Part shown: positions 8,078-32,440 of the stretch, piece after piece
How the letters are laid out: each line of letters opens with the position of its first letter
Position numbering within the stretch: position 1 is the first letter of the stretch
Assembly (NCBI GenBank): GCA_945865865.1
Contig: CAMBEX010000004.1
Span: 1 to 33,180, forward strand
DNA length: 33,180 bases
Source: Bdellovibrio sp. ZAP7
GTDB taxonomy: Bacteria; Bdellovibrionota; UBA1018
Direction: 5' to 3'
Translations under genes and position numbers: made by a program
Notes under the pieces: generated by a model
The model's database searches: none
What the model saw: the letters and a program-made list of their open reading frames with translations, nothing else
What the model was told of the DNA's origin: nothing

Positions 8078-8320
8078 ATGAATAAACAAGGCGCGCATGA
8101 AGTTCTGACTCGCGTGATTCGGGTTCGCAAGCAGGACTCGGCCTTTATTTATCATTTGTTGGAGTCTTACGAGGGAATCGCAAGCTACTCGACCCTCGAT
8201 AGTCCTCCGGGGAGCTCTTACTGCGATCTTGAGTTGTCGATTCCGGCAGGATTTGCCGAGGACGTCGAAAGATTGCTGAGCGAGCTCGGAGATAAGGTTT
8301 ATGAAAGGACCGATCGATGA
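8078..8320 (+). CDS. Small conserved protein, DUF4911-like
   Basis: 80 aa; pattern (VRKQDSAFIYHLLESYEGIASYSTLD) resembles DUF4911; ATGA overlap with the following pilT-like gene. Confidence 0.6.
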   Translation: MNKQGAHEVLTRVIRVRKQDSAFIYHLLESYEGIASYSTLDSPPGSSYCDLELSIPAGFAEDVERLLSELGDKVYERTDR

Positions 8321-9612: not shown

Positions 9613-9669
9613 GAGTCCTGGCCCAGTACCAGTAAGCACGGTTTTGTCGCGGCTGACCTGTCTCGGATC

Positions 9670-10719: not shown

Positions 10720-10879
10720 TCGAACTAGCCCGGGCTGCGCATGGTTTTTTTTGCTGCTCGCGTGGTGGCTGGCGGCTTCGCTGATTTTGGGAGGCCACCC
10801 CTGGAAGTTTCCGCGAGGTGGAAAAGGCCTGTTTCGCGAAGTTTTCTTACAAAAGGGAAGCCACGTAAGGACTTTTTGA
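10709..10879 (+). CDS. Small single-TM protein (56 aa), overlaps upstream gene end and convergent downstream gene
   Basis: Manual translation MKADRTSPGCAWFFLLLAWWLAASLILGGHPWKFPRGGKGLFREVFLQKGSHVRTF*; ATG lies 11 nt inside the end of the 9670..10719 ORF. Same frame as track ORF 10601..10879. Confidence 0.4.
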   Translation: MKADRTSPGCAWFFLLLAWWLAASLILGGHPWKFPRGGKGLFREVFLQKGSHVRTF

Positions 10880-11845: not shown

Positions 11846-11947
11846 GAGCAGGGTCTAACCTAAAGGTGACAAGGTTTTCGAGTTAAAACGCATGGGCTGG
11901 CCGAAACTGCATTTGCCGTATTGAGGCCCTCACAATACCATCAAGGG

Positions 11948-13138: not shown

Positions 13139-13169
13139 CGTCAGAGCTGCCGCGTGGTCGGGGTCTCCT

Positions 13170-14150
13170 TCAGGTGGCGAGCGTTCCCGTTTTCGCGCCG
13201 TTGAGTTCGATTTTTCTCATGAGAAGCGTGTCGCCTTCCCGGCCTTCAAGTTTCCAGATTTCAGAAATGCGGCGAACTCCCTCGTGACGCTTCATCTGAA
13301 CCACCCATTGAAGCCCCAATGCCAAAAGTTCGCGGATCGCAAGCGAGGTCAACTGACCGTTTCCGGCGAGCAGACAAAGCAGTTCGATGCGCTTGAGCGC
13401 CTCGCGCGGAGAGTTGGCGTGAAGGGTTGCCATCGCTCCTTGATGTCCGGTGTTGAGCGACTGAAGGAGTTCGAGCACCTCAGGCCCGCGGCATTCGCCT
13501 AATATGAGGCGATCGGGGCGCATACGCAGCGTCTGTCGGAGAAGGGTTCGCAGGGTGACTTCGCCAGCACCATCTGAGTTCGCGGTACGACTGATGAGTG
13601 AGAGAAAGTGAGGATGGGCGGGAGCAAGCTCTGGGGTGTCTTCGAGAGCGATGATTCGCTCGCGAGGATCGACTTCACTGAGGAGATCGCTGGCTAGCGT
13701 GGTTTTTCCGGTTCCTGTCGCACCCGAGATCAAAAGAGATTCGTGGTTTCTGACGATCTTAACCAGTTGTGAGTAAAGTGCTTCGCTCTGATGCCATCGC
13801 CGTGAGCCCGATGTGGAGCTGCAGGTCGGCAGGCGCCGGAGGGAGACCAAAATCCCATTTCGCGCGACCGGTGGAAAGGCCACATGGAGTCGATGTCCGG
13901 AGGGAAGGGTTGCGTCCACAAAAGGATGTTTGGCGTCCCATGATTTACCGGCTCGTGAGAGTTGTTCTAGAGTCCAGTTTTTGAGTTCAGGCTCGGACGG
14001 AATGGAGGCGCCTGTGCCTTGGATCGTGTCCGACTGCATTCCTGTGCCGCGGTCCACAAAAATTCCTTGCGCACCGTTAATGCAAAGATCGGTGACATCA
14101 GAGTCGGCAAGAAGATCGTCAATTCGCCGAAACCAGCTCGATGTATTCAT
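13170..14150 (-). CDS. CpaF/TadA-family secretion ATPase (short form)
   Basis: 326 aa; LLISGATGTGKTTLASDLLSEVDPRERIIALEDTPEL, LLRQTLRMRPDRLILGECRGPEVLELLQSLNTGHQGAMATLHANSPREALKRIE. ATGA overlap with the secretin. Confidence 0.92.
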   Translation of the reverse strand: MNTSSWFRRIDDLLADSDVTDLCINGAQGIFVDRGTGMQSDTIQGTGASIPSEPELKNWTLEQLSRAGKSWDAKHPFVDATLPSGHRLHVAFPPVARNGILVSLRRLPTCSSTSGSRRWHQSEALYSQLVKIVRNHESLLISGATGTGKTTLASDLLSEVDPRERIIALEDTPELAPAHPHFLSLISRTANSDGAGEVTLRTLLRQTLRMRPDRLILGECRGPEVLELLQSLNTGHQGAMATLHANSPREALKRIELLCLLAGNGQLTSLAIRELLALGLQWVVQMKRHEGVRRISEIWKLEGREGDTLLMRKIELNGAKTGTLAT

Positions 14151-15634
14151 CTTTCACCTCGCATCGCTTCTGGAAAATCCTCTGGAAAAAATTTTCGCGG
14201 CAGTGCCGCAACGTTTTCGACAGCGGGATTGAGCAAGGCGGGAATCTGGGGCAATATTTTTTCCATCGGCGCAGGCGGAGGAGTTGCGCTGGGAATCAGG
14301 ACCGCGACCAGTTCGGATTGTTCATTGAGGTAATCTTTGGACCCAAAAAGCGAACCCAGGATCGGAATTTTTCGAAGCGCCGGAAGTCCTCTGGCCTGCT
14401 CACGCGTGTTTTGCTTGAGAAGGCCCGATAAAAAAAGAGGAGAGCCAAAGCGCGCGTCGACTTGGGTTTTGAGACGATTGGCTTGGATTCCAGGAATTTC
14501 AGATTGAGAGGTGGAGAGATCGAGTTCACTGACTTCCGTGAAAATTTCGAGGCGAATCTGATCTCCGGCGCTATGGGTGACTTTGAGTTTGAGTGTAAGC
14601 CCGTGCTGCTTCCACTGGACTTGAGTGCCAAACTTCGAAGTGGTCACGATCGGGATTTCACCTCCTGCGAAAAGCTCGGCTTCTCCCGGGGTGCGAACCA
14701 CCAGCTCGGGCTTTGACAGGACTTTTGCATTTCCATTGCCCTCGAGCGCTCGCAAGGCAAGGTCGAGTTGCAAAGCGTTTCGGATTCCAAAAAACGGCTG
14801 AGTGACGATTTGAAACGCGGCCTGCTGCTCAGCAGGCCAGTTCAGTCCCAGGGCACCAAAGCTGTTTCTTCGAAGCTCCAAAAGATAGACACGAAAGTGC
14901 ACGGTGGGAGAGGAGTCCGGGAGCGCAGATATTTCAAATTGAGCTGCCGCAAATTTCGCGCGTATTTGTTTTTCTACCTCGGCCTGCTCGGCAGGGCGGG
15001 GCAAGGACCCGCGAATCCAAAGCCTGAGTCCGTGCTGCTCCACCCGGAGGTGGGTGGAATAGCTGGAATTTGCCAGCCATTCTTGGATTCGTCTCAAGCC
15101 TGATTCAAGGAGTGCGGGGCTCGGCTCGCAATCATTTTGAATCTCTTTTGGAAATCCTCGTGAAAGTGCTTCGACTCGAGCCAGTTCGTGTGCGCTTTTG
15201 ATCTCACCCCGAAGGTTGACTCCGGACTCCCCGGATCGGTAGATCTCGACTTCTTGAAGGCCGCTGAGGCCCTCCACCAAGGATCGCTTGAGTGAACTCT
15301 CGGGGGCGGTTTTTTGAATCGAAAAGGGACGGTGCTCAGCCTCACCGTCTTCTTTCCAGATCCAAAGGTCGCTGAATCCGGGAGATTGGGCTTTGACGAG
15401 TAGATAGGAGTCCGCGCTATCAACTTCGCGTGGCAGAGTCTGGGCTTTAAGTGAGGTGCCACCGAGGGAGTAGCGTTTGAGTCCAGGCACATACAAAAGT
15501 CTTTGTTCCCCGACACTTAATTCGGTCCGCGGTACCGCATTCACGGGGGCGCGAGTGGTTTCTTGGGCCATTGCCATGCGTGAATTCAGAATCGCGAGAA
15601 CCAAGAACAAACCCGTCTGGATGAGGTGATTCAT
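14147..15634 (-). CDS. CpaC/RcpA-type secretin (type II/III secretin family)
   Basis: Signal peptide MNHLIQTGLFLVLAILNSRMAMAQ; secretin core VLSKPELVVRTPGEAELFAGGEIPIVTTSKFGTQVQWKQHGLTLKLKVT...SGLLKQNTREQARGLPALRKIPILGSLFGSKDYLNEQSELVAVLIP. Track start 15664; ATG 15634 preferred for the signal peptide. Confidence 0.92.
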   Translation of the reverse strand: MNHLIQTGLFLVLAILNSRMAMAQETTRAPVNAVPRTELSVGEQRLLYVPGLKRYSLGGTSLKAQTLPREVDSADSYLLVKAQSPGFSDLWIWKEDGEAEHRPFSIQKTAPESSLKRSLVEGLSGLQEVEIYRSGESGVNLRGEIKSAHELARVEALSRGFPKEIQNDCEPSPALLESGLRRIQEWLANSSYSTHLRVEQHGLRLWIRGSLPRPAEQAEVEKQIRAKFAAAQFEISALPDSSPTVHFRVYLLELRRNSFGALGLNWPAEQQAAFQIVTQPFFGIRNALQLDLALRALEGNGNAKVLSKPELVVRTPGEAELFAGGEIPIVTTSKFGTQVQWKQHGLTLKLKVTHSAGDQIRLEIFTEVSELDLSTSQSEIPGIQANRLKTQVDARFGSPLFLSGLLKQNTREQARGLPALRKIPILGSLFGSKDYLNEQSELVAVLIPSATPPPAPMEKILPQIPALLNPAVENVAALPRKFFPEDFPEAMRGER

Positions 15635-15818
15635 GAGGCAGTGCGTTCGCAAGATGGGTTCCACTGCCCCTGAGTTGGCATTTGCAAGCTCGGACCGGAG
15701 GGTTTTGCTGCGCCCATGAGAGTCGGTTGGCCCAGCTAAGTGAGTAAATTCCTTGCTTTGCCCTCATGCCCAAGCTATTCAAGGTCACTCAATTTTCGAT
15801 CATTTGGAGGTCGTTTTT

Positions 15819-17544: not shown

Positions 17545-17666
17545 TTTTAAGTGTGGGGGTGTTGAAACTCTGGCGAAACGGCCGGACAGCGCCAGAAACG
17601 ACACAGAATTAGCGCAGAAGACAACACAAAATTAACTCAAGGACGGGTTAAGAAGGGGTGGCATTG

Positions 17667-18719
17667 ATGCTTTCAGTAAGGTCTCCGTTGGTGGGTGAGA
17701 GTCTCGCGATCCAGGATATTTTCAAAACGCTCAGTAAGGTTTCACAGACCGAGAGCACGATCCTGATCACGGGCGAGAGCGGCACAGGCAAGGAGCTTGT
17801 TGCCCGCGCAATTCATGAAAATTCCACACGCGCTACAAAGCCGCTGGTGATTGTGAACTGCGGAGCGATTCCCGGTGACCTTCTTGAAGCCGAGCTTTTC
17901 GGCCACATGAAGGGCGCATTTACCGGAGCCAGTCAAAATCGTATTGGACGGTTTGAACTCGCTCACGGCGGAACACTTTTCCTTGATGAAGTCGGCGAAC
18001 TCCCTTTGCATCTTCAGGTGAAGTTGCTTCGCGTTCTTCAGACCAAGCAATTTGAAGCAGTCGGTTCTTCGAAGACGATTGACGTGGATGTTCGCATCAT
18101 TGCGGCAACCAACCGCGATCTTGAAGCCGCTGTTCAAAACAAAGAATTCCGCGAAGACCTCTATTACCGCTTGAACGTGATCCCACTTCGTATGCCGTCT
18201 TTGCGCGAGCGCAAGACCGACATCGGAATGTTGGCCAATCACTTCATCACCCGAATCAATCAGGCAACCAACAAGAACGTTCAGGCTCTCTCAGCGACCA
18301 TTCTTGAGGCACTGACTGCTTACGATTATCCAGGCAACGTGCGTGAGCTTGAAAACCTCATCGAGCGTATCGTGATTCTCAAGGGCGAAGGCGAGATTGA
18401 ATTGGCGGACCTTCCTCAGCGCGTTTTCCACAAGTATGCGGAATCTCGTCCTGCGGGAGCGGGAGCGATTTCGGCTGTTGAGTTTCCACGAATGATGTTG
18501 CCAAACACGGGTTTGGATCTCAAAACCATCGTCGAAGCGTTTGAAAATCACTTGGTCGATCAGGCTTTGGCCCGCACCAGTAACAACAAGAATCGCGCAA
18601 GCGAGCTTTTGCAGATGAACCGCACGACTCTGGTTGAAAAGCTTCGCAAACGCGGAATGATCAAAGCTGTGGGCAAAAAGGCATTGTCTCAGGAAAATGA
18701 CGAGGCTCCTGCCAACTGA
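17667..18719 (+). CDS. Sigma-54 dependent transcriptional activator without receiver domain
   Basis: AAA+ domain: ITGESGTGKELVARAIHENS, GAFTGA, GGTLFLDEVGELPLHLQVKLLRVLQ; C-terminal Fis-type HTH. The AAA+ starts almost at the N-terminus. GTG 17658 is the track start; ATG 17667 has better SD spacing. Confidence 0.95.
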   Translation: MLSVRSPLVGESLAIQDIFKTLSKVSQTESTILITGESGTGKELVARAIHENSTRATKPLVIVNCGAIPGDLLEAELFGHMKGAFTGASQNRIGRFELAHGGTLFLDEVGELPLHLQVKLLRVLQTKQFEAVGSSKTIDVDVRIIAATNRDLEAAVQNKEFREDLYYRLNVIPLRMPSLRERKTDIGMLANHFITRINQATNKNVQALSATILEALTAYDYPGNVRELENLIERIVILKGEGEIELADLPQRVFHKYAESRPAGAGAISAVEFPRMMLPNTGLDLKTIVEAFENHLVDQALARTSNNKNRASELLQMNRTTLVEKLRKRGMIKAVGKKALSQENDEAPAN

Positions 18720-18750: not shown

Positions 18751-18788
18751 GAGGCTCGGTCGTCATGCGATCGGGCCTCTTTTTTTTT
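18751..18788 (+). terminator. Rho-independent terminator after the EBP gene
   Basis: GAGGCTCGGTCG-TCAT-GCGATCGGGCCTC stem (two G:U pairs) followed by T9. Confidence 0.8.
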
Positions 18789-18803
18789 GGGAACGCAGGT
18801 CTT

Positions 18804-19642
18804 ATGAAAAGTTTCCTGGGTTGGAGTCGAAATGTCGATCTGGAAGCGCCCGCGCGACTGAGCAGTTGGCGTAAGGTTGCGATCGGTACCTGGGGTCACC
18901 CGGGAGATCCGAGTGTTTACGGCTCAATGGATATCGACGCTGAGCCAGTCCTTGCTTACATCGAGAAGCTGAGGATTCAGAGCGGGAGGCGAGTCACGCT
19001 GACTCACGTCGTAGGCAGAATCATCGCTGAGACATTCAAGAGGCACCCTGGAGTTAACTGCCTGTTACGTCTGGGGCGTTTGTATCCGAGGAAGTCGATT
19101 GACGTCTTTTTTCAGGTTGCAGCGGATCCACAGGGAGAGGAATTGACCGGAGTCACTATTCGAGATGCGGACAAAAAGAGCATCATTGAGATTTGCCGTG
19201 AGATGGAGGATCGGGTCGCACTGATTCGTGCTCACCAGGATGCTTCGTTTGCAAAAGTGAAAAAGACAATGCCGCCGCTCCCGGCTGGATGGTGCGAAGT
19301 CTTTTGGGGTTAGCCGCATTTGTAAACTACACGCTCAATCTTTTTACCCCGTTATTGGGATCACCTCGCGATGCCTTTGGGAGCTGTATGGTTACCAATA
19401 TTGGCTCACTTGGGCTCGACACGGCCTTTGCGCCACTCGTACCTTACTCGCGGGTGCCTGTTCTTTTGGCTGTGGGTAGCGCCATGGATAGGCCTTGGGT
19501 TCGCGAGGGCAAACTCTGTGTGGCTAAGGTGCTTAGAATTTGTGTGACGCTCGATCATCGCCTGATCGACGGAGTGCATGCGAGCCACATGGCCAAGACC
19601 GTTCAAAAAATCTTTGCGGACCCTGAGCGGGAGCTGGCCTAG
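18804..19642 (+). pseudogene. 2-oxoacid dehydrogenase acyltransferase catalytic-domain protein, split by an apparent frameshift near 19280-19313
   Basis: Frame 1 (18804..19313): MKSFLGWSRNVDLEAPARLSSWRKVAIGTWGHPGDPSVYGSMDIDAEPVLAYIEKL...KKTMPPLPAGWCEVFWG*. Frame 2 (19289..19642): MVRSLLGLAAFVNYTLNLF...FGSCMVTNIGSLGLDTAFAPLVPYSRVPVLLAVG...VTLDHRLIDGVHASHM. Together they form one CAT-like domain with the DHRxxDG motif in frame 2. Confidence 0.75.
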
Positions 19643-20203: not shown

Positions 20204-21019
20204 TTAGTTTGTCTTAGGAGCGGTTTTTTCGGACTTTTCAATGGTCTGGCGAACTAGGTTGCGAACGATCTTGCTCCGATTGGCGCCGCCCACGAGCGCC
20301 TTGGCATCGTCATAAAGGGCCGGATCGTTGACGAGTGCGCCCAGCGTTCCGTTTCCGTTATTCACTTTTTCTAGGATCGAGTTGAGGTTGGTCATCGCTT
20401 CACCCAACCTGAATTTTTCCATCTCATGATTCAGTTTGAAGCTGGCTTGCGAGAGGTTGCGTGCGGTCTCCGCCATTCCATCAAAAACTTTTTCGGAGCG
20501 ATTGGCTTTTTCAAACTGTTTAAGCAGGCGGTTCAGCGTGCTCGCGGCTTCATTAAGCGTCGCAAAGAGCTCGTCTCCCTTGGAGATAAACTGGGTGATG
20601 TCTTTCGAAGGGGCATTTGGAATCTCAGATCCCGGTGGAATTATTTCCCGATCCGCTTCGCCCTGAGAAATTCGGATAAATTTGTCGCCCAGCATTCCTT
20701 GCGCCGCGACCTCCGCGGTCGAACCAGCGCGGATCCAGTCCTCGTACTTGCGCGCAACACTGACAATTACGGAGACGTCGCGCTTTTCGGGGTCCATCTC
20801 GATTTCTTCCACCACGCCGACGCGCACGCCGCTTAAGACGACTTTGGTGCCGACAATCAGGCCATCGACGCTTTGAAAATGAATCGGATAGAGATTACTC
20901 CGAGAAAAAAGACGACTCTTGTTGCCGATCACCAGGACCGAAAACAAAAGCAGTGCGATGCCGGCGCTCACAAACACGCCGACCTTAAGATCGGATTGAG
21001 GACTCACTTTAGGCATCAC
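20204..21019 (-). CDS. mlaD: MlaD/Mce-domain substrate-binding protein
   Basis: 271 aa; single N-terminal TM, YPIHFQSVDGLIVGTKVVLSGVRVGVVEEIEMDPEKRDVSVIVSV, AAQGMLGDKFIRISQG. Confidence 0.92.
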   Translation of the reverse strand: MMPKVSPQSDLKVGVFVSAGIALLLFSVLVIGNKSRLFSRSNLYPIHFQSVDGLIVGTKVVLSGVRVGVVEEIEMDPEKRDVSVIVSVARKYEDWIRAGSTAEVAAQGMLGDKFIRISQGEADREIIPPGSEIPNAPSKDITQFISKGDELFATLNEAASTLNRLLKQFEKANRSEKVFDGMAETARNLSQASFKLNHEMEKFRLGEAMTNLNSILEKVNNGNGTLGALVNDPALYDDAKALVGGANRSKIVRNLVRQTIEKSEKTAPKTN

Positions 21020-21758
21020 CAGCTCCTAGAATAAATGACTGCACTAAGGGGTCTTTGGATTTCTGTATTTTATCAACTGTATCAATCACGTGAATTTTTC
21101 CATTATAGAGAATGGCGATGCGATCGGCAATTTCGAATGCACTCGGAATGTCATGGGTGACAAAGATTCCCGTACTGCCGCGAGCCTTAAGTTTTTTAAT
21201 GTTACTGATCAGTCTCTGGGTATTGGGCGGATCGAGGCCCGCCGTGGGTTCGTCAAAAAGGATGATCTCAGGTTCGAGGATGATCGCTCGGGCAAGGCCC
21301 GCGCGTTTTTGCATACCTCCTGAGAGTTGGGCTGGGAGAAGGTTGTTGGTGCCGGGCATATCAATCAAATCGAGCATCTGATTGACGCGGTTGTGGATTT
21401 CCTCATCGCTCAGGCTGGAGTGAGCGCGCAGCGGGTAGGCCAGATTATCCTCAACCGAGAGCGAGTCAAAGAGCGCCCCGTTTTGAAACACATAGGCGAT
21501 CTTTTTTCGGATGGGCGGCATCTCGAGCTCACCGATGTTCACGATGTTGCGGCCGTGAAAAAGGATCTCTCCTTCGTCCGGGGTCTCAAGTCCGATGATG
21601 GATCGCAGAATCACACTCTTGCCGGTTCCGGAGCCCCCAAACAAGCCTAAGATTTCACCCGTTTTGACCCCAAAAGAAACGCCTCGATGAACCGACTTTG
21701 CGCCGAAGGATTTTTTCAGATTTTTGATCTCGAGTGCGTAGTGGGTCGTGGGTTCCAT
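21009..21758 (-). CDS. mlaF: ABC transporter ATP-binding protein (MlaF-type)
   Basis: LFGGSGTGKSVILRSIIGLETPDEGEI, LSGGMQKRAGLARAIILEPEIILFDEPTAGLDP; overlaps mlaD and directly follows the permease. Track start GTG 21767. Confidence 0.93.
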   Translation of the reverse strand: MEPTTHYALEIKNLKKSFGAKSVHRGVSFGVKTGEILGLFGGSGTGKSVILRSIIGLETPDEGEILFHGRNIVNIGELEMPPIRKKIAYVFQNGALFDSLSVEDNLAYPLRAHSSLSDEEIHNRVNQMLDLIDMPGTNNLLPAQLSGGMQKRAGLARAIILEPEIILFDEPTAGLDPPNTQRLISNIKKLKARGSTGIFVTHDIPSAFEIADRIAILYNGKIHVIDTVDKIQKSKDPLVQSFILGAGDA

Positions 21759-21766
21759 AGGGTGCA

Positions 21767-22594
21767 CTAGTAGCGAGGATAAACCGTGAGAATAAAGAGT
21801 TTAGTCAGAAAGAAATCACTGATCATGATGAAGATGCTCGAGGTGACCACCACCCAGGTGGTGGTGTTTCCGATCCCTTGTGTTCCGCCTTCGGTTTGAA
21901 GTCCCTTCCAGCACGCGGTGATGGAGATGAAAAAACCAAAGACCACTGTTTTTGACATTCCTGTGAGGAGATCGGTCATGGTGAGCGTCTCGATCGTTTT
22001 TGCGAGAAAAAACTCTTTATTGATTCCGAGCTCGCCCATGGAGACGACCATTGCGCCAAAAAGGCCGATATAGTCGGCAAATAGCGTCAAAATGGGAAGC
22101 GCGATCAAACTGGCAAGCAGCCGCGGAATCACAATTCTTTTAATGGGGCTTGTGCCGAGAGCGCGGATTGCGTCGATCTGTTGCGTGACCTTCATGGAGG
22201 CAACTTCGGCTGCGATTCCGGAGCCAATTCTTCCCGCGACCAAAAGACTCGTAAAGACCGGACCCATTTCTCGTGCGATGGTCAGCGCTACCAGGCGCGG
22301 AGTGTAGAGAGTGCCGCCGAACTTTGAGAGGCCGTAGCCAAACTGCAGAGCCATGACTGAGCCCGTCGCCAGTGCGGTGACTGCAACCAGAAAGAAGGAC
22401 TGGGCACCCAGTCGCAGCAACTGCTCGAGGGTGAGTGACGGATAAAATGGCGGTTTAAAAAGCTCCCTAAAAACATCAATCGAGAGCTTGCTGAAGCCCC
22501 CGGCAAATCGAACGGCTCCTGTGAGCTTTTGCCACTGAAGTGTGGACCAGGAACTTCCGGAATGCGCGCGCGAGTCAGCGCTGATCATGGACAT
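21767..22594 (-). CDS. mlaE: MlaE-family ABC permease
   Basis: 275 aa; LVALTIAREMGPVFTSLLVAGRIGSGIAAEVASMKVTQQIDAIRALGTSPIKRIVIPRLLA. Confidence 0.94.
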   Translation of the reverse strand: MSMISADSRAHSGSSWSTLQWQKLTGAVRFAGGFSKLSIDVFRELFKPPFYPSLTLEQLLRLGAQSFFLVAVTALATGSVMALQFGYGLSKFGGTLYTPRLVALTIAREMGPVFTSLLVAGRIGSGIAAEVASMKVTQQIDAIRALGTSPIKRIVIPRLLASLIALPILTLFADYIGLFGAMVVSMGELGINKEFFLAKTIETLTMTDLLTGMSKTVVFGFFISITACWKGLQTEGGTQGIGNTTTWVVVTSSIFIMISDFFLTKLFILTVYPRY

Positions 22595-22609: not shown

Positions 22610-23194
22610 TCACTCTTTCAGACGAAGCGATTCGACGAACTTTGAGAAGGCCTCGGTTTCAGCGACAAAAAAGCGAGCCAGCGAAACCAGCGTCAAGTCA
22701 TAGACGCAGGATTTTTTTCTAAGAACTACGGTACGAATGACAAGATCCTGGCCTTCAGCCACCCCGTGTGCGGTGGTTTCGAGGGCGGGGACGTTTTGCA
22801 CCAACCGTGCATTTTCTTTTCGGTCGCGGAGCTTGGTGAGGCTCGAAAACAGGGGCTGCGAAAATTCACGCAAATCTTTTGAGGGGGATTCGTTTCCGGC
22901 TCGGCAGCCCGACGTGAGCGAGATCGTCGAAGCTGTTTTTTTTGACTGAAAGGCGACATCAGATACTTCGCTGGGCGTGACGCCTTTTGAGCGAGTCTGA
23001 ACTGGCAGGAGCGAATTCCAGTTTGGATCCTCCTTCGAAAGATCCATGACGCCGTAGGTAATTGATTTCTGGTCGACGGGTTTTACGTTGCCGACCAGTA
23101 CCGCGCAGCCGCAGAGTCCGCCTGCCCCGGCCAGGATGAAAGTCAAAGTTGCGGTCCAAATGGGGCGGCAAATCGGGATGGGCAAAAACGTCAT
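22610..23194 (-). CDS. Putative lipoprotein, first gene of the Mla/Mce-type operon
   Basis: From ATG 23194: MTFLPIPICRPIWTATLTFILAGAGGLCGCAVLVGNVKPVDQKS...; LCGC lipobox-like; 15 nt upstream of mlaE. The longer track ORF to 23602 overlaps the divergent promoter region and is not supported. Confidence 0.7.
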   Translation of the reverse strand: MTFLPIPICRPIWTATLTFILAGAGGLCGCAVLVGNVKPVDQKSITYGVMDLSKEDPNWNSLLPVQTRSKGVTPSEVSDVAFQSKKTASTISLTSGCRAGNESPSKDLREFSQPLFSSLTKLRDRKENARLVQNVPALETTAHGVAEGQDLVIRTVVLRKKSCVYDLTLVSLARFFVAETEAFSKFVESLRLKE

Positions 23195-23268
23195 AAATCG
23201 AGTGTAGACCGTCAAGCGCTCGGCGTAAACTGTGCCTTGTCTGACGTTTTTGGAAGGAGCGGAGGGTC

Positions 23269-23303
23269 CTCCGGCAAATCCGTCCGGGCTAAGTTTGCCG
23301 GAG
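23269..23303. repeat. Perfect 10-bp inverted repeat CTCCGGCAAA-N15-TTTGCCGGAG
   Basis: Left arm 23269-23278, right arm 23294-23303, in the divergent mla/TPR intergenic region; partly overlaps a second repeat GGAGG-GT-CCTCC (23261-23272). Confidence 0.85.
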
Positions 23304-23410
23304 TGTCGGAGTTGCCTGGTAAAAAAATTCCTCAAGGGTACGGGAGGTTGGAGGGGCGCCGCCGAGTTGGCAAAGCTCGATTGGGTTTCGTAAATTGAGA
23401 ATCCGCAGAT

Positions 23411-23427
23411 TTGGCACCGGGCTTGCT
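23411..23427 (+). promoter_or_regulatory. Sigma-54 (RpoN) -24/-12 promoter
   Basis: TTGGCACCGGGCTTGCT; GG-N10-GC spacing exact, near-perfect match to consensus YTGGCACGN4TTGCW; 84 nt upstream of the ATG at 23511. Confidence 0.85.
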
Positions 23428-23510
23428 TTAACGCTACTGGAACAGGACTGAAAGTCGCTTCATGAGGAGGCGGCGAGAGGTCCGAGTGCAGTAACCCGAG
23501 AGAGAGCAGG

Positions 23511-26441
23511 ATGCTCGAGACAACAGCAAGAGTCCGCAGTTTTCGCAGGTCCCTTCGAGCCGTGGCTGTTGCCGCGCCGTTGACTCTCGCCTTTATCTTC
23601 ATACTTCCGCTTTTTATCGGAATCCCTAACGTCGAAGCTTTGACGCTCGAGTCTGCGGGTGACCCGTCTCAAAACCCCGTTCGCATTCATAGATTCAAGA
23701 CACACAGCCGGATCGCATTTCGCCTCGATGAGGGGGTGGAGACTCGGTGGAAAGAAATTCCGGGCGGATTTGAGCTGTTTTTTCCAGGAATCAGCCTCGC
23801 GGATTTTGGCGTGGCGTTGGGTGAAGAGAAAATCTGGATCGAGAATTTTGAAAGGCTTCCTAAGGGAGATCCGAGACTTAAGACCCTGAGCCTGCGTGAA
23901 TCGGCGGCTGGGGTACGGGTCATTGGAATGTGGAAGTTCGCAACCGGCCCTGAGGCGCCCGCCGTACCGGCCATGGAAAACTTTCGTTATCGCAATCGGG
24001 CTTCTTCTGAGTATCTAATCGATTTTTGGCCAAAATCGGGACCCACGGTGGCGGAAGCCCGCGCAAAGACCCTGAGAAAAGACTATGAGGCGTCGATCCA
24101 CAAGGCTGAGACCGAGGCCGAGCAGCGACAGGCGCGAAGACTCGCGAACATCAAGGAGCGCGAGGAGTCCGACGACGTCGCGCGGTTCTGTCGGCAGCCG
24201 CTCTCTGATCGGCAGGATATTTTTCTTCCGTTCTTTCCGGTTCACGAGCCTCTGGATTTCAAGAAATGGTTTCCGGTAACGACTGCCGATGCGGAGTACT
24301 CGTACGCCGAACCCAAGTCAGACGCTCAGGACTCCCAGTATTACAAATTGGCACTGAGACTTTATCGACAAGGCAACTATGCGCTTGCGATCAAGACGAT
24401 CGACTTTTTTGATCACGAGTTCAAAAAATCCGCACATGAAACCGAGATGAGGTTCATCCGCGCCAACGCCATGATCAAGCTGGGGCACAAAGAGGACGCT
24501 CATCGGCTCCTCAAGGTGATCACCGTTGAGAACAAGTCCTCGCCGGTTGCATTGCATGCAGCGATGTACCTGGCGGTTCAAACCTTGGAGCGCGGCGATC
24601 ACCTCGCGGCCCTCGAAACCTTTTTTTGGCTAGCCGCCAATCACAGCAAGCACAGACTGACCTGGGTGTTTCATCTGGGCGCCGGCGAGGCGCTTTTTGC
24701 CATGAAGCAAACCGGCCGTGCCGCAAAAGAGTATCAGTGGGTCATGCGAAATGCGGGCGATCGCGAACAGCAGGCGACGGGAGCCTTTCGTTTAGGCGAT
24801 CTTTATCTGCAGCGGCTGATGCATGACCAGGCACTTGCGAGTTACTTTCAGGTCCTTCAAGTCTATCCGGAACAGGCTAAAAATTATCCCGCGATTCATC
24901 TCAACCGGGCCGAGGCACTGTATTGGCTCGGACAATTTGATCGGGCAGAAAAAGCGTTTGAAGAATTTCTGGAACGATTTCCGAGTAACTCGAACGGCTG
25001 GCGCGCGTACCTGAGAATGGCCGAGATTTCTGGGAGACGCACCGGAGACTCGGATCGAGCCAAAATGCGAGAAAGGTTTTATCAGACAGTTAATCGCCAT
25101 CCCTTCAGTCCGGGCGCGACACTTGCGCGACTCCGCATGCTTCCTTGTGGGGATCACGGTGGGCTGTCGACGGATGCCGCACGCCGGTTTTTCGAGACGG
25201 ATGCAGCAAAAATGGATGGCGGTGGACACGTGGTGATGGATCGCTACCGCGATTTCCGGGGACTTGCGCAGGTCCGCACGCTGATCAGCTTGGGGCTCGA
25301 GGATGAGGCCGTGAGCGTGGCGATCCGCGAACTGCAAGCAAACGCCCGCTCCGAAGCGCGGCACATCGTTGCGGGCCTGTTGCAGACTGTATTTAGAAAA
25401 TCTGTTCTGAACCGCATCGCGAATGGAAAAAATCTCGAGGCGCTCAAATTTTATCATGAGTATGTTGAATCGATTCCCACCACTCCGGCGATGGTGGATC
25501 CGGATTACCTGCTCAAACTTTCGCAGGCGGCCTCGGATCTGGGCATGGGAAAGTGGGCTGAGACCCTGGCGCAAAAACACGCTTCTGCACTGACGCTGGC
25601 GGAAAAACGCCGAGTCAGGGATCTGGCCGCCGAAGGCAAAGAGTCTCAGAAACGCACGGGCCCGTTCGACATTGATGAGCGGGTTAGGGATTCGGAGCGT
25701 TACTTCAGCGAGGCAAAAGCGTTGTGGGTTGCAGGAAATCAGCCTCCTGCACAAGCACGAGCTGATGCGCCGAAGGATGAAGAGGATAAGAAACTGGGAG
25801 CCGCAGCGAACGACGCACGCGAACTTAAAATCCGAGATCTCTTGGGAAAAATTTCGGAGGAGTCGCCATTTTCATTCGAGCGCGAACTCATGCTTGGCAG
25901 ACTCGATGAGGTCGCGGGCAAGCCTGCCTCCGCACTTCAACATGCGCTCAAAGCGCAGGTCCTGATGCCAGCGGTCAACAAGTCAGATTTCAGAGCAATG
26001 GCGTGGCTGGCTTCTCTCCATGCAAAGGCTGGCGACCCTAGGATTGCAGTCGAACTTTACCGTGAACTTCAGAAAAAATCGCAGACACAGACCGAAGCGA
26101 AGGGGTCCGACACCGGTGCGGTGTTTGGAATACCAGCGTTGCCGACTCTGGAGCGGCTTGTTTTGGAAGAGGCAGAACTACTAGCGCGTCTCAGCAAATG
26201 GGGAGAGGCGGCCACGGCCTACTCACGCCTCGTCGACCAGAACAAGGGCGGAAACCAGGCGCTCTACGAGTATGCTCGCGTTCTCGGAAAGACCGGAAAA
26301 ATTTCGGATCGAGAGAAAGCCCGAACCGCATTAGAAAAAATTTCTCAGTCCAAGGATGAGGACTTTTGGAAAAAACTCGCGCTTGAAGCGTTAGCAAACG
26401 ATCAAGCCGGAAACCTGTCAGCCAAGGAGGGCTCGAAATGA
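23511..26441 (+). CDS. Large exported TPR-repeat protein with AMIN-like N-terminal region
   Basis: 976 aa; N-terminal hydrophobic signal (AVAVAAPLTLAFIFILPLFIGIPNVEA); RFKTHSRIAFRLDEGVETRWKEIPGGFELFFPG resembles AMIN-type beta domains; multiple TPRs (LALRLYRQGNYALAIKTIDFFDHEF..., AEALYWLGQFDRAEKAFEEFLERFPSN). ATGA overlap with the next gene. Confidence 0.88.
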   Translation: MLETTARVRSFRRSLRAVAVAAPLTLAFIFILPLFIGIPNVEALTLESAGDPSQNPVRIHRFKTHSRIAFRLDEGVETRWKEIPGGFELFFPGISLADFGVALGEEKIWIENFERLPKGDPRLKTLSLRESAAGVRVIGMWKFATGPEAPAVPAMENFRYRNRASSEYLIDFWPKSGPTVAEARAKTLRKDYEASIHKAETEAEQRQARRLANIKEREESDDVARFCRQPLSDRQDIFLPFFPVHEPLDFKKWFPVTTADAEYSYAEPKSDAQDSQYYKLALRLYRQGNYALAIKTIDFFDHEFKKSAHETEMRFIRANAMIKLGHKEDAHRLLKVITVENKSSPVALHAAMYLAVQTLERGDHLAALETFFWLAANHSKHRLTWVFHLGAGEALFAMKQTGRAAKEYQWVMRNAGDREQQATGAFRLGDLYLQRLMHDQALASYFQVLQVYPEQAKNYPAIHLNRAEALYWLGQFDRAEKAFEEFLERFPSNSNGWRAYLRMAEISGRRTGDSDRAKMRERFYQTVNRHPFSPGATLARLRMLPCGDHGGLSTDAARRFFETDAAKMDGGGHVVMDRYRDFRGLAQVRTLISLGLEDEAVSVAIRELQANARSEARHIVAGLLQTVFRKSVLNRIANGKNLEALKFYHEYVESIPTTPAMVDPDYLLKLSQAASDLGMGKWAETLAQKHASALTLAEKRRVRDLAAEGKESQKRTGPFDIDERVRDSERYFSEAKALWVAGNQPPAQARADAPKDEEDKKLGAAANDARELKIRDLLGKISEESPFSFERELMLGRLDEVAGKPASALQHALKAQVLMPAVNKSDFRAMAWLASLHAKAGDPRIAVELYRELQKKSQTQTEAKGSDTGAVFGIPALPTLERLVLEEAELLARLSKWGEAATAYSRLVDQNKGGNQALYEYARVLGKTGKISDREKARTALEKISQSKDEDFWKKLALEALANDQAGNLSAKEGSK

Positions 26442-27406
26442 CGGAAATCATCACATCGGATCGACGGATGAGGGAACTGATTCAGCTTGCTAAGACGGTA
26501 GCTCAAAGTAAGGCTACGGTACTCATTCAAGGTGAGAGCGGAACGGGCAAGGAGCTCATGGCGAGCCTGGTCCACGAGAACAGCACGCGCTCCGGTCGCA
26601 CGTTTGTCGCGATCAACTGCGCTGCGATTCCTGAAAATCTCCTTGAGTCCGAACTCTTTGGATATGAGCGCGGCGCTTTTACCGGAGCGGTTTCCAGCAA
26701 GGCCGGAAAATTTGAGTTCGCAAACGGCGGAACCCTTCTATTGGATGAAATTTCAGAAATGGATATCCGTCTCCAGGCAAAACTCTTGCGAGTGATTCAG
26801 CAAGGAGAGGTCGATCGCCTAGGCGGACGCAAACCGATCGGCGTGGATGTTCGAATCATCGCGACCACCAACCGCAATCTCGCAGACTGCGTGCGCGAAG
26901 GGAGTTTCCGTGAGGATCTCTACTACCGCTTGAACGTCGTGAATCTCACCATTCCTCCGCTGCGTGAGCGAGTGGGTGATGTGGAGATTCTTGCCAAGCA
27001 TTTTATGTCAGTCTATTCCTCCAGGAACGGAAAATCCCTGACCGGAATTTCCACCGAGGCATTGGGTCTTTTGCAGTCTCACGCTTGGCCAGGCAATGTT
27101 CGAGAGCTTGAAAACGTCATCGAGCGTTCGGTGATCACCACACTGGGTGGAGTCATCGCACAGAGCGATCTCGTGCTCGAACGTAATGCCATGACCGGGA
27201 TTCTCAACGAAGAGCTTGCCCAGAAAAGCGAACGGACGGGGTGGGAACCAGGGCGCACGCTCGACGATATCGAGCGCGAGGTTATTCTCAAAGCGCTCAA
27301 CTACCACCAGGGAAATCGCACGCACACTGCGCGCGCTCTGGGAATCTCGATTCGAACGCTGAGAAACAAGCTTTCGGACTACAGGCATCTCGGAATCAGC
27401 GTTTAG
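26438..27406 (+). CDS. Sigma-54 dependent activator without receiver domain (flagellar regulator candidate)
   Basis: 322 aa; IQGESGTGKELMASLVHENS, GAFTGA, GGTLLLDEISEMDIRLQAKLLRVIQQGEVDRLGG, C-terminal Fis HTH HQGNRTHTARALGISIRTLRNKLSDYRHLGI. Confidence 0.96.
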   Translation: MTEIITSDRRMRELIQLAKTVAQSKATVLIQGESGTGKELMASLVHENSTRSGRTFVAINCAAIPENLLESELFGYERGAFTGAVSSKAGKFEFANGGTLLLDEISEMDIRLQAKLLRVIQQGEVDRLGGRKPIGVDVRIIATTNRNLADCVREGSFREDLYYRLNVVNLTIPPLRERVGDVEILAKHFMSVYSSRNGKSLTGISTEALGLLQSHAWPGNVRELENVIERSVITTLGGVIAQSDLVLERNAMTGILNEELAQKSERTGWEPGRTLDDIEREVILKALNYHQGNRTHTARALGISIRTLRNKLSDYRHLGISV

Positions 27407-27474
27407 TTGGAGCAGGCTTGGCCGGGCAAAATTTTCTCTGTGATCTTCTTGCAGCAGAATCTTTTTGCCTGGCT

Positions 27475-27493: not shown

Positions 27494-27598
27494 GATCAGT
27501 CAGTAAGTGTTGGAAATGTTTGGATCAGTGGTTACCGGAAGGATCGGTAAAAAGGGCATGCAACTTGAACTTTATCGCAAGAGAGGGGGGCGTAGATC

Positions 27599-28015
27599 AT
27601 GAGCGATTCGGGTTTTGATTCGACTATTGGCGCGCTCAATACGTCTCTGAACTTGCGCTTGCTGAACCAGAACGTGATTGGCGCCAATATCGCCAACGCA
27701 GACACTCCTGGTTACAAAGCCAAGTCGGTGGAGTTTGAGGGCGCGCTTCGTGAGGCACTCGGAGTGGGGCAAGGAGTTCAGGCCCAAGGCAGTCATCCTG
27801 AACACATTCAGCGCAGAGCAACGGATCCTGTTTTTCCAGAAATTTATGACGATCCCAATGGAGTCGAATCGCTGGATGGAAACACCGTGGATCGCTCTGC
27901 TGAGATGGCGGAGCTCGCCGAAAATCAATTGCTGTATGACGCTTCGGCCGAAATGCTGAAACGGAAACTAGGAATGCTCAAGTACGCAATCTCTGAAGGG
28001 GGAGGTAACCGTTAA
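27599..28015 (+). CDS. flgB: Flagellar basal-body rod protein FlgB
   Basis: 138 aa; LNLRLLNQNVIGANIANADTPGYKAKSVEFEGALREAL; position directly before flgC. Confidence 0.95.
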   Translation: MSDSGFDSTIGALNTSLNLRLLNQNVIGANIANADTPGYKAKSVEFEGALREALGVGQGVQAQGSHPEHIQRRATDPVFPEIYDDPNGVESLDGNTVDRSAEMAELAENQLLYDASAEMLKRKLGMLKYAISEGGGNR

Positions 28016-28452
28016 TGGATTTCTTTTCTTCCATGCGCGTAAGCGCAAGCGGGCTAGACGCTCAAACCAAGCGGATGAATACGATCTCAAGCAATATCGC
28101 AAACGCCGAGACCACACGCGGCGTAGATGGCGGTCCCTACAAGAGAAAAGACGCTGTTTTTCAGGCACAAACCGATCGCGAGAGTTTTGGAGAGATTCTT
28201 CAGGACCAACTCGACGAGCAGGTTCAGGGAGTTCAGGTCACCGACATTCAGGACGACCCGAACCCGCCCCGCATGGTTTACAATCCGTCTCACCCGGATG
28301 CGAACGAAGAGGGCTACGTGGCAATGCCCAACGTCAACACCGTTCTTGAGATGGCCAACATGATCAGCGCGCAGCGTTCTTACGAAGCCAATGTAACGGC
28401 GATGGGTGCGGCCAAAGCCATGGCTCAAAAAGCCTTGGAAATCGGAAGATAA
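28015..28452 (+). CDS. flgC: Flagellar basal-body rod protein FlgC
   Basis: 145 aa; MDFFSSMRVSASGLDAQTKRMNTISSNIANAETT...GYVAMPNVNTVLEMANMISAQRSYEANVTAMGAAKAMAQKALEIGR; TAATG overlap with flgB. Confidence 0.97.
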   Translation: MDFFSSMRVSASGLDAQTKRMNTISSNIANAETTRGVDGGPYKRKDAVFQAQTDRESFGEILQDQLDEQVQGVQVTDIQDDPNPPRMVYNPSHPDANEEGYVAMPNVNTVLEMANMISAQRSYEANVTAMGAAKAMAQKALEIGR

Positions 28453-28464
28453 AGGGAGCTCTAG

Positions 28465-28836
28465 ATGTCGAATAATCTGACGATAGAAAATCTAGGAAAA
28501 CAGATTCAGCTCGGTAACCCCGAAGGGATGCTTGGGAGTGGGATCAGCTCGGAACAATCAGTCACCCGAGAAATGGCCAAGAACGGAATGCAGGCGCCTT
28601 CAGTGGGCGACTCCGCGGGAACTTTCTCTGATGCTCTCCGAAGTTCGGTCGAGAAGGTGAACGAGTATCAGAGTCAGGCAGACACGGCGATCAAAGAGAT
28701 GGTCGCTGGAAAAAACAAAAATATTCATGAAACGATGCTCGCCATCGAGCGTGCTGACAGTTCTCTCAAGCTGATGATGCAGGTGAGAAACAAGGTGCTC
28801 GATGCGTATCGCGAAATCATGCGTATGCAGGTGTAG
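28465..28836 (+). CDS. fliE: Flagellar hook-basal body protein FliE
   Basis: 123 aa; FSDALRSSVEKVNEYQSQADTAIKEMVAGKNKNIHETMLAIERADSSLKLMMQVRNKVLDAYREIMRMQV. Confidence 0.96.
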   Translation: MSNNLTIENLGKQIQLGNPEGMLGSGISSEQSVTREMAKNGMQAPSVGDSAGTFSDALRSSVEKVNEYQSQADTAIKEMVAGKNKNIHETMLAIERADSSLKLMMQVRNKVLDAYREIMRMQV

Positions 28837-28862: not shown

Positions 28863-30548
28863 TTGGGAGATTACCTAAAAAAAGTTTTTGGGCAGATCGC
28901 TGACTTCTTCAAAGGGCTTTCGCCCGGACGTCAGGTCGCGCTGATCACTACCGGGGGCACCATCGTGGCCGCGATGGCGATGCTCTTTCTTTGGGCTGGT
29001 AGAACCAGTTACCAAAGTCTGATGACCAATCTTAATCCGGAGGATTCGCAGAACGTCATGCGATTTCTCAGGGAAAAGAACATTCCATTTAAGATGGATG
29101 ACGCTGGACGGTCGATTTCGATTCCCTCTGAGGTGGTTGATGAAACCCGGCTTGCTCTGGCAACGCAGGGCATGCCCCAGAGTAGCGTCGTCGGCTACGA
29201 GGTGTTTGATAAGCAACAGTTGGGCACGACTAGCCTTGTTCAACGACTCAATCAGAAACGTGCTCGCGAAGGCGAGCTGATGAGGACGATTCAAACCATC
29301 AAGGGAGTCAAACGCTCCCGCGTGCATTTAGCTATTCCTGAAAAGAGCGCTTTTGTTGAGGATCAGAAAAAATCTACGGCATCAGTGGTACTGGATCTCG
29401 AACCCGGGATCCTCCTCAACGAAAAGCAGATCTACGGAATTGGTAATCTCGTGTCTCGCGCGGTTGAAGGTCTCGACATCGACGACGTCGTGATCGTCGA
29501 CTCGAACGGAAAGACACTCTCCAAGAACGCGGGGGACTCGTTGGCTTCTGCGAACTCAAGTCAAATTGAGTTCAAACAGAAGATCGAGCGCGACATGGAA
29601 GCGCGCATTGAAGGCATGCTTTCACGCGTGGTCGGTGATGGCCGCGTGGTTGCTACGGTTTCGGCCGATGTCGACTTCGCGCAGGTGAGTGAGACGCAAA
29701 CCATCTATGACCAGGACGGATCCGCCGTTCGTTCGATGGAAAAAAACAGTCAGTCCATGGAGGGCACGAGACCCAATCCAGGGGGTGCTGCCGGAGCGAC
29801 GTCCAATTTGCCGGGACAGCCTCAACAAGCTAACGGCGAGATTAAATCCGACACCAAGCGGATAAACGAAGTGGTCAATTACGCGGTTCCGCAGACTATC
29901 CGCACCACGACGCGCCCTTCGGGAAGTGTGAAGAAGCTCTCAGTGGCGGTCGTTCTGGATGGACGACAAAGCAAGAGCACCAACAAGGATGGGCAGGTAG
30001 AGAACAAGAGCGAAGCATGGTCAGCTGAGAAGCTCAAAGAGTTTGAGGCTGTTGTTTCGGGAGCCGTGGCGCTCGATCGCAAGCGTGGAGACACTCTTGA
30101 GGTCAAGAACATGGAGTTCACTCGCGTAGATCTCGACACCGCCGAAGATGAGCTGGCTGCACACCAGCGCAAGGCCTACATTCAAAACATGGTGGTCTAC
30201 GGAGTGGTGGGCATCCTGTTTGTCTTGTTCTTCTTGTTTGTGGTTCGACCTTTCGTCAAGTGGGTGACTGAGAACACGATCGACAGCGTCGATACGTTTT
30301 TGCCTCAGACGATCGAGGAACTCGAAAAACTTCAAAAGAACAATTCACTGCCAGGCCTGGAAGATGCGGTTCCAGTGATGCCGGACCGGCTCGACCCAGA
30401 GAAGGTCGAGGGAGAGATGATGCGCGAGAAAATCACGACGCTCGTCGAGACCAACCCTCACAAGGCGGCGCTGATCCTCAGGGATTGGCTCCACACCGAG
30501 GGTCCAAAGAAGGAAAAGGAAGCCGGCGGAAAAGGAAAAACGGCTTAA
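28863..30548 (+). CDS. fliF: Flagellar MS-ring protein FliF
   Basis: 561 aa; two TM segments, GYEVFDKQQLGTTSLVQRLNQKRAREGELMRTIQTIKGVKRSRVHLAIPEKS, NEVVNYAVPQTIRTTTRPSGSVKKLSVAVVLDG. TTG start with GAGGA SD. Confidence 0.97.
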   Translation: MGDYLKKVFGQIADFFKGLSPGRQVALITTGGTIVAAMAMLFLWAGRTSYQSLMTNLNPEDSQNVMRFLREKNIPFKMDDAGRSISIPSEVVDETRLALATQGMPQSSVVGYEVFDKQQLGTTSLVQRLNQKRAREGELMRTIQTIKGVKRSRVHLAIPEKSAFVEDQKKSTASVVLDLEPGILLNEKQIYGIGNLVSRAVEGLDIDDVVIVDSNGKTLSKNAGDSLASANSSQIEFKQKIERDMEARIEGMLSRVVGDGRVVATVSADVDFAQVSETQTIYDQDGSAVRSMEKNSQSMEGTRPNPGGAAGATSNLPGQPQQANGEIKSDTKRINEVVNYAVPQTIRTTTRPSGSVKKLSVAVVLDGRQSKSTNKDGQVENKSEAWSAEKLKEFEAVVSGAVALDRKRGDTLEVKNMEFTRVDLDTAEDELAAHQRKAYIQNMVVYGVVGILFVLFFLFVVRPFVKWVTENTIDSVDTFLPQTIEELEKLQKNNSLPGLEDAVPVMPDRLDPEKVEGEMMREKITTLVETNPHKAALILRDWLHTEGPKKEKEAGGKGKTA

Positions 30549-30590
30549 TTGATCGCTCCACCATGGGGCGCTCTATCGAGGGTTTAGACA

Positions 30591-31604
30591 ATGTCCTACG
30601 AGAATTACGACGAAATGTCGGGTCTAGAAAAATCCGCACTGCTACTCAATGTCCTGGGTAATCAGGTGACCGCATCGGTGTTCAAACAGATGCGCGATAA
30701 CGATGTTAAGCGCCTAGTGACTGCGATGGGCAACGTAACTCGTGTGCCGATTCCTATGGTCAAGGAAGTCCTCGAGGCCTTCTACACGGAGATCGCCGAG
30801 GAGGACAGTCTGCTCTTTGGTCAGGCGCAGGGGAGAGACTTTGTTTTGGCAACGCTCGGCGAAGAGCGGGCGAAAACAGTTCTTGGACAACTCTCAGTGG
30901 TGGAGGGAAGCAGAACTCTCGAAGCTCTCGAGCTTGTGGACTCTCGTACGCTTTCGAACTTTTTGCTCAACGAACATCCTCAGACTATCGCGCTTATTCT
31001 TGCGCATCTTGAACCCAGCAAAAAGTGTGATGTGCTGCGACGTTTGCCAGAAGCCATGCAGACCGAAGTGGTTTTGCGTATCGCCAATCTCGACTTCATT
31101 TCACCCAGTCTCATCGCGCAGGTCGACGAGGTCCTCAAACAGGAACTGGCCACTCTGGGGTCCATCGATACCCAGCAGCTCGGAGGAGTTCCGCCAATCG
31201 CCGAAATGCTCAATGTCATGGACAAGACCAACGAGCAGAACATCATGGCGCGCGTCGAAGAGAAGGATCCTCAGCTTGCCGAAGAAATCCGAAAACTCAT
31301 GTTCGTTTTCGAGGACATCGTCTTCATCGACGATCGTGGAATGCAGGTCCTGCTCAAAGAAGTCCCGAACGACAAGCTGGTCATCGCGCTCAAAACCGCG
31401 CCCGAGGAGATCAAAGACAAGATCTTCAGAAACATCTCGAAGCGCGCGGCCGATCTATTGCGCGAAGATCTCGAGGCCCTGGGTCCGGTGCGCCTGTCGG
31501 ACGTGGATGCCGCTCAGCAGGAGATCGTCAATGTGGCAAAGCGGCTTGAAGGCGAAGGCAAGATCATGATCAGCCGCGGTGGCGACGGGGATGCCTTGGT
31601 ATGA
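30591..31604 (+). CDS. fliG: Flagellar motor switch protein FliG
   Basis: 337 aa; EHPQTIALILAHLEPSKKCDVLRRLPEAMQTEVVLRIANLDFISPSLIAQVDEVLKQEL, MFVFEDIVFIDDRGMQVLLKEVPNDKLVIALK. Confidence 0.98.
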   Translation: MSYENYDEMSGLEKSALLLNVLGNQVTASVFKQMRDNDVKRLVTAMGNVTRVPIPMVKEVLEAFYTEIAEEDSLLFGQAQGRDFVLATLGEERAKTVLGQLSVVEGSRTLEALELVDSRTLSNFLLNEHPQTIALILAHLEPSKKCDVLRRLPEAMQTEVVLRIANLDFISPSLIAQVDEVLKQELATLGSIDTQQLGGVPPIAEMLNVMDKTNEQNIMARVEEKDPQLAEEIRKLMFVFEDIVFIDDRGMQVLLKEVPNDKLVIALKTAPEEIKDKIFRNISKRAADLLREDLEALGPVRLSDVDAAQQEIVNVAKRLEGEGKIMISRGGDGDALV

Positions 31605-32440
31605 CGAGTAGATTCAGGCCCGCGCATATGGACATCAAGAACGAACCTAAGACAGCGGGAGATCGCACGATCCGTGAGTTGAGCTACGGATTGGAGAAGC
31701 AGGTGAGAGAATTTCAGATGCCTAAGCTCAACGGTCCGGGCGACGGTGACTATCGCGTACTCAAGGCCAAGTACGGTTCGCTTGCTACGACCGATTCGGA
31801 CCGTTCTGGCTTGATGGATCCGAAGTTTCACCTGAATCAGTTGGTGCGAGATCCGCTGCTCATCGAAGAAGAAGAGCGCAGGGCGATCGAGGAACGCGTT
31901 CGAGCGCGTCTTTCGGAGCTTGCCGAAGAGGAAAAAAAAACGGCAGGAACCCAAGGGTTTCAAGCCGGACTTGAAAAGGGCCGTCAGGAGGCGTTGAAGA
32001 TCTTTCGTTCAGAGGCGAGCGAACGCCTTGAGAGCTTTGATGCCTTTCTGGATCACTGTGAAAACGCCAAGGCCGAAATTTTCAAGGCCAATGAACGCTT
32101 TCTGACTGAGATGGTCTTTCGCATCGCCCGGATGGTGTTGCTCAAGGAAGTAACAACCGACCGCGAATATGTGAGTCGACTTGCAAAAAGTATCGTCGAT
32201 CAAATCGGAGTGAGAGAGAACATCCGAATCCGTATAAGTGAAGGGGATTTTGCGACTGCGCAGCAGATCAAAGAAAATCTTGAAACCGCCCTTGGGGCGC
32301 TTAAAAACCTGAGCATCGAGGCTTCTTCGCAGGTCGGCGCGGGCGGATGTCTCATCGATACGCAGTGGAACTCAGTGGATGCCACGCTGGAGGCCCAACT
32401 CAAGGGTCTGCATGAAGCGCTAGTGGGCAAAAATTCTTAA
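31601..32440 (+). CDS. fliH: Flagellar assembly protein FliH
   Basis: 279 aa; EEEERRAIEERVRARLSELAEEEKKTAGTQGFQAGLEKGRQEALKIF and a C-terminal FliH/HrpE-type domain; between fliG and fliI. ATGA overlap with fliG. Confidence 0.88.
   Translation: MTSRFRPAHMDIKNEPKTAGDRTIRELSYGLEKQVREFQMPKLNGPGDGDYRVLKAKYGSLATTDSDRSGLMDPKFHLNQLVRDPLLIEEEERRAIEERVRARLSELAEEEKKTAGTQGFQAGLEKGRQEALKIFRSEASERLESFDAFLDHCENAKAEIFKANERFLTEMVFRIARMVLLKEVTTDREYVSRLAKSIVDQIGVRENIRIRISEGDFATAQQIKENLETALGALKNLSIEASSQVGAGGCLIDTQWNSVDATLEAQLKGLHEALVGKNS

Follow-up and report, generated by a model that had tools for sequence, protein, structure and literature searches.

The early flagellar genes of Bdellovibrio sp. ZAP7 raise the question of how their transcription is started and what restrains it afterwards. 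In the 33,180-nucleotide stretch of DNA analysed here (the window), flgB, flgC and fliE (27599..28836) and fliF, fliG and fliH (28863..32440) follow, all on the forward strand, the genes for a 976-residue TPR protein (23511..26441) and for a 322-residue sigma-54 enhancer-binding protein (EBP; 26438..27406) that lacks a receiver domain. The relatives surveyed by tblastn fall into six families, designated f1 to f6, with the window belonging to f1. About 40 genomes, drawn from all six, retain the order TPR-EBP-flgB-flgC-fliE-fliF-fliG-fliH, with additional DNA separating the EBP gene from flgB in f2. All f1 relatives that carry a name are MAGs, and the labels read Bdellovibrionales, Oligoflexia or Bacteriovoracaceae.

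Upstream of the TPR gene lies the forward-strand element TTGGCACCGGGCTTGCT (23411..23427), in which GG (23413-23414) and GC (23425-23426) are separated by ten bases. The preliminary description had presented it as a near-perfect sigma-54 element with exact GG-N10-GC spacing in the right orientation, and the sequence confirms this, with 83 nt between the 3’ end of the element and the TPR ATG at 23511 and a predicted transcription start near 23438. It is the only zero-mismatch copy of TGGCACN5TTGCW in the window, where matches with two or three mismatches are at or below the chance level, and in a scan of both strands with a sigma-54 PWM whose scores are approximate it ranks highest at 16.8, the runner-up scoring 15.1. 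The source assembly (2.34 Mb, 86% complete) contains 16 copies of TGGCAYN5TTGCW against a single one for the reversed-pattern control, and rpoN was found in 38 of 38 genomes, the source genome included. A listed minus-strand ORF (22610-23602) crosses the promoter and has an in-frame ATG at 23194, just upstream of the half-site block described below; because the relatives suggest that the divergent gene starts at this ATG, we treat 23195-23510 as intergenic. Other exact sigma-54 sites in the same genome (L089, L091, L094, L099, L100 and L101) often precede short genes whose products look like secreted proteins or lipoproteins, and both the half-site block and the paired leader hairpins are absent from these six sites.

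Alignment across relatives, which the preliminary description had proposed as a check, shows the -24/-12 site just upstream of the orthologous TPR gene in all 35 loci of f1, f2, f4 and f6 for which upstream DNA is available. In f1, f4 and f6 (31 of 31 loci) it nearly always reads TGGCA[CT]N5TTGCT, and the four f2 genomes all have TTGGCAC-N6-TGCT forms; these loci score between 12.5 and 17.1, and about five scores above 14 are expected per Mb of shuffled loci. We considered a chance occurrence at 23411-23427 and dropped it, since the site is conserved upstream of an orthologous gene. The earlier proposal of a sigma-54 promoter thus draws strong support from conservation, the presence of rpoN and the genome-wide enrichment of the motif, and the -24/-12 consensus with its GG-N10-GC spacing is very probably such a promoter.

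The site has been lost in two families: none of the 13 f5 genomes has it upstream of the TPR gene, nor does the one f3 genome. Most f5 loci and f3 share a conserved TCTGCYACAAT, which at a guess resembles an extended -10. In a tree of FliF, FliG and FlgC, whose deep support is modest, f5 forms one clade and f3 groups with f4 and f6, which suggests that the promoter was lost twice, independently in f5 and in f3. The f5 leaders upstream of the TPR gene (L078-L082) also have TTCTGCCACAATAGG in common, together with a ATTCACGACTAGGAAGGGAGTGATCGGTAC block that hardly varies; these may represent another promoter and a GGA-containing leader. A sigma-28 promoter was considered for f5 and dropped, as TTAAG-N16-CCGATA was not seen there by eye.

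Three short forward-strand hairpins lie downstream of the promoter. H1 (23454..23474; GTCGCTTC-ATGAG-GAGGCGGC), identified in the leader from sequence and RNA folding, has two G-U pairs and a loop without GGA. H2 (23504..23516; GAGC-AGGAT-GCTC) surrounds the TPR start codon and has a CsrA-type loop, and H3 (26420..26433; AGCC-AAGGAG-GGCT) surrounds the Shine-Dalgarno sequence of the EBP gene and has an ANGGAN loop. Energies of single leaders give weak MFE z-scores (-1.1 for the window), so the case for structure in the leader rests on comparison. Short hairpins with an ANGAN or ANGGAN loop are present in 26 of 31 leaders, compared with 1.2 on average and at most 5 in dinucleotide shuffles, and ANGAN is flanked by four complementary pairs in 34.6% of instances in leaders but 2.5% in gene bodies, an excess that is register-specific. 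The leader stems vary in sequence and the loops are constant, in an alignment that was chosen for stems and therefore gives biased counts. H3 (GCC-AAGGAG-GGC) forms at least four pairs in 29 of 39 loci, f5 included, and in f2 its stem is replaced to give GAC-AGGAG-GTC. The covariation of H3 is 0.196 compared with 0.087 in shuffles (0 of 500) and falls when the partners are slid, in a test that is anchored on the Shine-Dalgarno sequence only and in a region that in many loci is also TPR coding sequence. A search of Rfam with 23300-23700 returned no match.

The loops match described targets of CsrA and RsmE, which include the CAGGA(U/A/C)G repeats of CsrB and the ANGGAN hexaloop of RsmE (PMC7652899). 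A csrA gene is present in 54 of 56 genomes and fliW in 51 of 53; in the genomes compared, the two share a contig and are separated by a few hundred bases. With loops of this kind and a near-universal, linked csrA-fliW pair, CsrA is the likeliest binder, and the combination of csrA with short GGA-loop hairpins at a start codon (H2) and a Shine-Dalgarno sequence (H3) suggests that the hairpins are probably CsrA sites. H1 is the weakest case among them, its loop being AUGAG in the source genome and AUGAN without GGA in several other leaders. These loops, and the fact that H3 follows in part from the TPR coding and Shine-Dalgarno sequences, lend some weight to the alternative that the hairpins are 5’-end stabilisers, structures that present the transcript to the ribosome, or sites for another RNA-binding protein; we consider this a serious but somewhat less probable explanation, against which stand the C-AGGA(U/A/C)-G and C-ANGGAN-G loops known from CsrA and RsmE targets (PMC7652899), the near-universal csrA-fliW pair and the covariation of H3. 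Across 56 genomes the sequence GAGCAGGAWGCTC has about 60 occurrences compared with 12 for a control, and 12 of the roughly 60 are this leader, such that other targets may exist.

The EBP gene itself overlaps the TPR stop codon by ATGA (26438-26441). Its product starts directly with the AAA+ domain and has no receiver, but Walker A, the GAFTGA motif (aa 79-84) and a Fis-type HTH are all intact, bearing out the earlier statement that the operon encodes a sigma-54 EBP; its Sigma54_activat domain with GAFTGA and its HTH are the features that characterize bacterial enhancer-binding proteins. The best NCBIfam model is FlbD (NF050807), with 439 bits against a curated cut-off of 750 and the receiver region missing, and because the score is below the cut-off we describe the protein as FlbD-like only.

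A candidate enhancer for an EBP emerged from comparison of 31 promoters. The conserved block CCGTCAA...CGTAAACTGT...CTGACG (23209..23246) appears in relatives as CCGTCAA-N-CGNCGTAAACTGT-N-CTGACG(G), in many cases with GGTCAAAA after it, about 100-200 bp before the -24 element and in DNA that is otherwise divergent. A loose form, GTCAA-N15..30-TGACR, is present within 320 bp upstream of 24 of the 31 promoters, with 48 matches in total in 761 kb of strand, and there is none at the other 15 exact sigma-54 sites of the source genome. The f2 loci have related half-sites at closer spacing, as judged by eye, and the block is absent in f5 and f3. A genome search with CGTCAA-N18..30-TGACGG gave mostly scattered matches at about twice the control level, and the short pattern alone is therefore unspecific. 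Where the block lies and how its half-sites are spaced are consistent with an EBP enhancer, and we regard this as probably its role; a plausible -10/-35 of the divergent gene overlaps it as well, and it may be part of that gene's promoter too.

The preliminary description had gone further and predicted a positive feedback loop in which the operon encodes its own activator. The promoter-specific block makes this plausible, as does the situation in f5, where the promoter and the block are missing in 13 of 13 genomes and the GAFTGA stretch is lost in 12 of 12 genomes with EBP sequence. The HTH of the f5 protein is near-identical, and as the block is missing there the EBP must also read other sites. 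Other loci speak against the loop: five keep the promoter with a mutated GAFTGA (GAFAGT in four f2 loci and DAFAGA in G023), and f3 has GAFTGA in its EBP without the promoter. There are also other candidates, with 13 full-length EBPs in the source genome, one of which (window 17658-18719) is a second receiver-less protein with GAFTGA and 51% identity over 235 aa to the operon EBP. Self-activation is nevertheless the best, if unproven, reading; activation by the co-encoded EBP in the source genome seems rather likely, and the joint proposal of a sigma-54 promoter plus self-activation only marginally less so.

The principal competing explanation is that the sigma-54 promoter is activated by another EBP in trans, and that the co-encoded protein mainly serves later flagellar promoters, as in an ordinary cascade. 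The twelve or so further EBPs, including the receiver-less one in the window, could supply such an activator, and in f2 and G023 promoter and half-sites are retained despite the mutated GAFTGA; however, the tight linkage between EBP and promoter, and the absence of promoter, block and GAFTGA together in f5, speak against it, and we consider it possible but rather unlikely. It is very improbable that 23411-23427 is unused or not the main promoter and that a sigma-70 or sigma-28 promoter drives the operon, for although f5 and f3 lack the element and must use another promoter, perhaps TCTGCYACAAT, and attack-phase promoters of B. bacteriovorus are mostly of the FliA type (PMC3627812), the site is conserved in 35 of 35 loci of four families.

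The preliminary description had assumed one operon continuing into flgB, and this is upheld in part: the TPR and EBP genes overlap by ATGA, and in several relatives the gap between the EBP gene and flgB is only 2-22 nt or the genes overlap, for which reason co-transcription through flgB is likely, but the gap in the window is 192 nt and holds a separate conserved element. This element, AGGGCATGCAACTTGAA (27553..27569, forward strand), contains GGCAT-N5-TTGAA and has sigma-54 spacing with the -12 GC changed to GA. In nine f1 loci (the window, L049-L053, L061, L066 and L077) GGCAY-N5-TTGAA lies no more than 75 nt before flgB, and it has three matches elsewhere in 399 kb; it could be a variant promoter or another element. 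Intergenic inverted repeats at 23269-23303 (CTCCGGCAAA/TTTGCCGGAG) and 27421-27473 (GCCGGGCAAAA/TTTTGCCTGGC) adjoin both promoter-like elements, and motifs resembling CGGCAGA/TTCTGCCG recur in intergenic DNA of relatives.

We infer from these features that RNA polymerase with sigma-54 at 23411-23427 would transcribe the early flagellar operon once opened by an EBP that occupies the half-site block farther upstream, the most likely activator being the receiver-less FlbD-like protein made from the second gene of the same transcript, which would create positive feedback. CsrA bound to the hairpins at the TPR and EBP starts would then restrain the transcript post-transcriptionally, with FliW as its likely antagonist. 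A more tentative extension, which we would not put forward as the probable state of affairs, is a double-locked switch in which a receiver-less and possibly constitutive EBP activates the sigma-54 operon that encodes it and CsrA-FliW brakes translation of both the TPR protein and the activator, with at least one family rewired to another promoter class through loss of the -24/-12 element and the sigma-54-contact loop, and with the DNA-reading head and a CsrA-like start hairpin kept.

Each of these components has relatives among known systems. Caulobacter FlbD, which acts with FliX, is likewise a flagellar sigma-54 EBP and is the best NCBIfam match of the operon protein; it is not controlled by phosphorylation and represses fliF transcription (PMC3096577). 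FlbD, however, has a (divergent) receiver and acts at class III promoters, whereas the protein described here has no receiver and precedes flgB-fliH in an operon whose promoter it may activate. Receiver-less EBPs of the PspF type similarly consist of AAA+ and HTH domains without an N-terminal regulatory domain, but here the core is FlbD-like and the operon flagellar. Control of flagellar mRNAs by CsrA-FliW, as at Bacillus hag and Campylobacter flaA, also involves GGA-loop hairpins at or near translation starts and linked csrA and fliW, although here the putative target is not flagellin but an early operon that includes a regulator gene. The GAFTGA-less NtrC proteins of Caulobacter and Rhodobacter have lost the L1 loop and act at sigma-70 promoters (PMC10274813), a precedent that parallels the loss of GAFTGA in f5, though NtrC is a nitrogen regulator with a receiver and the f5 protein is flagellar. 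There are known examples of sigma-54 flagellar operons, of flagellar EBPs and of CsrA-FliW control; what appears new is the combination of a receiver-less EBP in its own operon with a family in which promoter and GAFTGA were lost together. Published promoter mapping in Bdellovibrio stresses FliA (PMC3627812), and in the open-access literature searched we found no description of sigma-54 control of flagella in Bdellovibrio relatives. If the proposed mechanism is correct, the operon offers a compact and testable model for the initiation and restraint of a self-driving flagellar programme, and f5 would provide a natural example in which a sigma-54 activator has apparently moved to another promoter class.

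The TPR protein has a possible counterpart in the Campylobacter motor. AlphaFold2 with 26 sequences (pLDDT 85, pTM 0.65) predicts an N-terminal beta-sandwich followed by a long TPR superhelix. Among PDB structures, Foldseek ranks chain K of 9HMF, the periplasmic flagellar scaffold of Campylobacter jejuni, first (E 3e-12 across 970 columns); from its length of 773 residues chain K would be mature PflA. PflA shares the N-terminal beta-sandwich, a linker and the long TPR superhelix, and the same authors have already suggested PflA for Bdellovibrio (PMC12222027). The TPR protein has this architecture together with an export signal, as judged by eye. TM-scores to chain K are low (0.26/0.30), as is usual in long flexible solenoids, and other TPR solenoids also score well; when PflA relatives were sought in the PDB by sequence, the 60 matches listed were all generic TPR matches, in a sequence set from which 9HMF, an alpha-carbon trace, may be missing. 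By predicted fold, architecture and locus the protein appears PflA-like, with orthology not proven. The fold match points to it as a concrete candidate for PflA in these bacteria, encoded together with motor genes in one operon.

The DNA to the left of the promoter contains further genes of interest. At 8317-15664 and 20204-22594, next to the flagellar genes, are type II/IV-type secretion genes, with two T2SSE ATPases and a secretin among them, as well as an Mla-type lipid transport operon on the minus strand. At 18765-19642 the catalytic domain of a 2-oxoacid dehydrogenase acyltransferase is distributed over two ORFs that overlap in different frames, reflecting a frameshift, a decayed gene or an assembly error.
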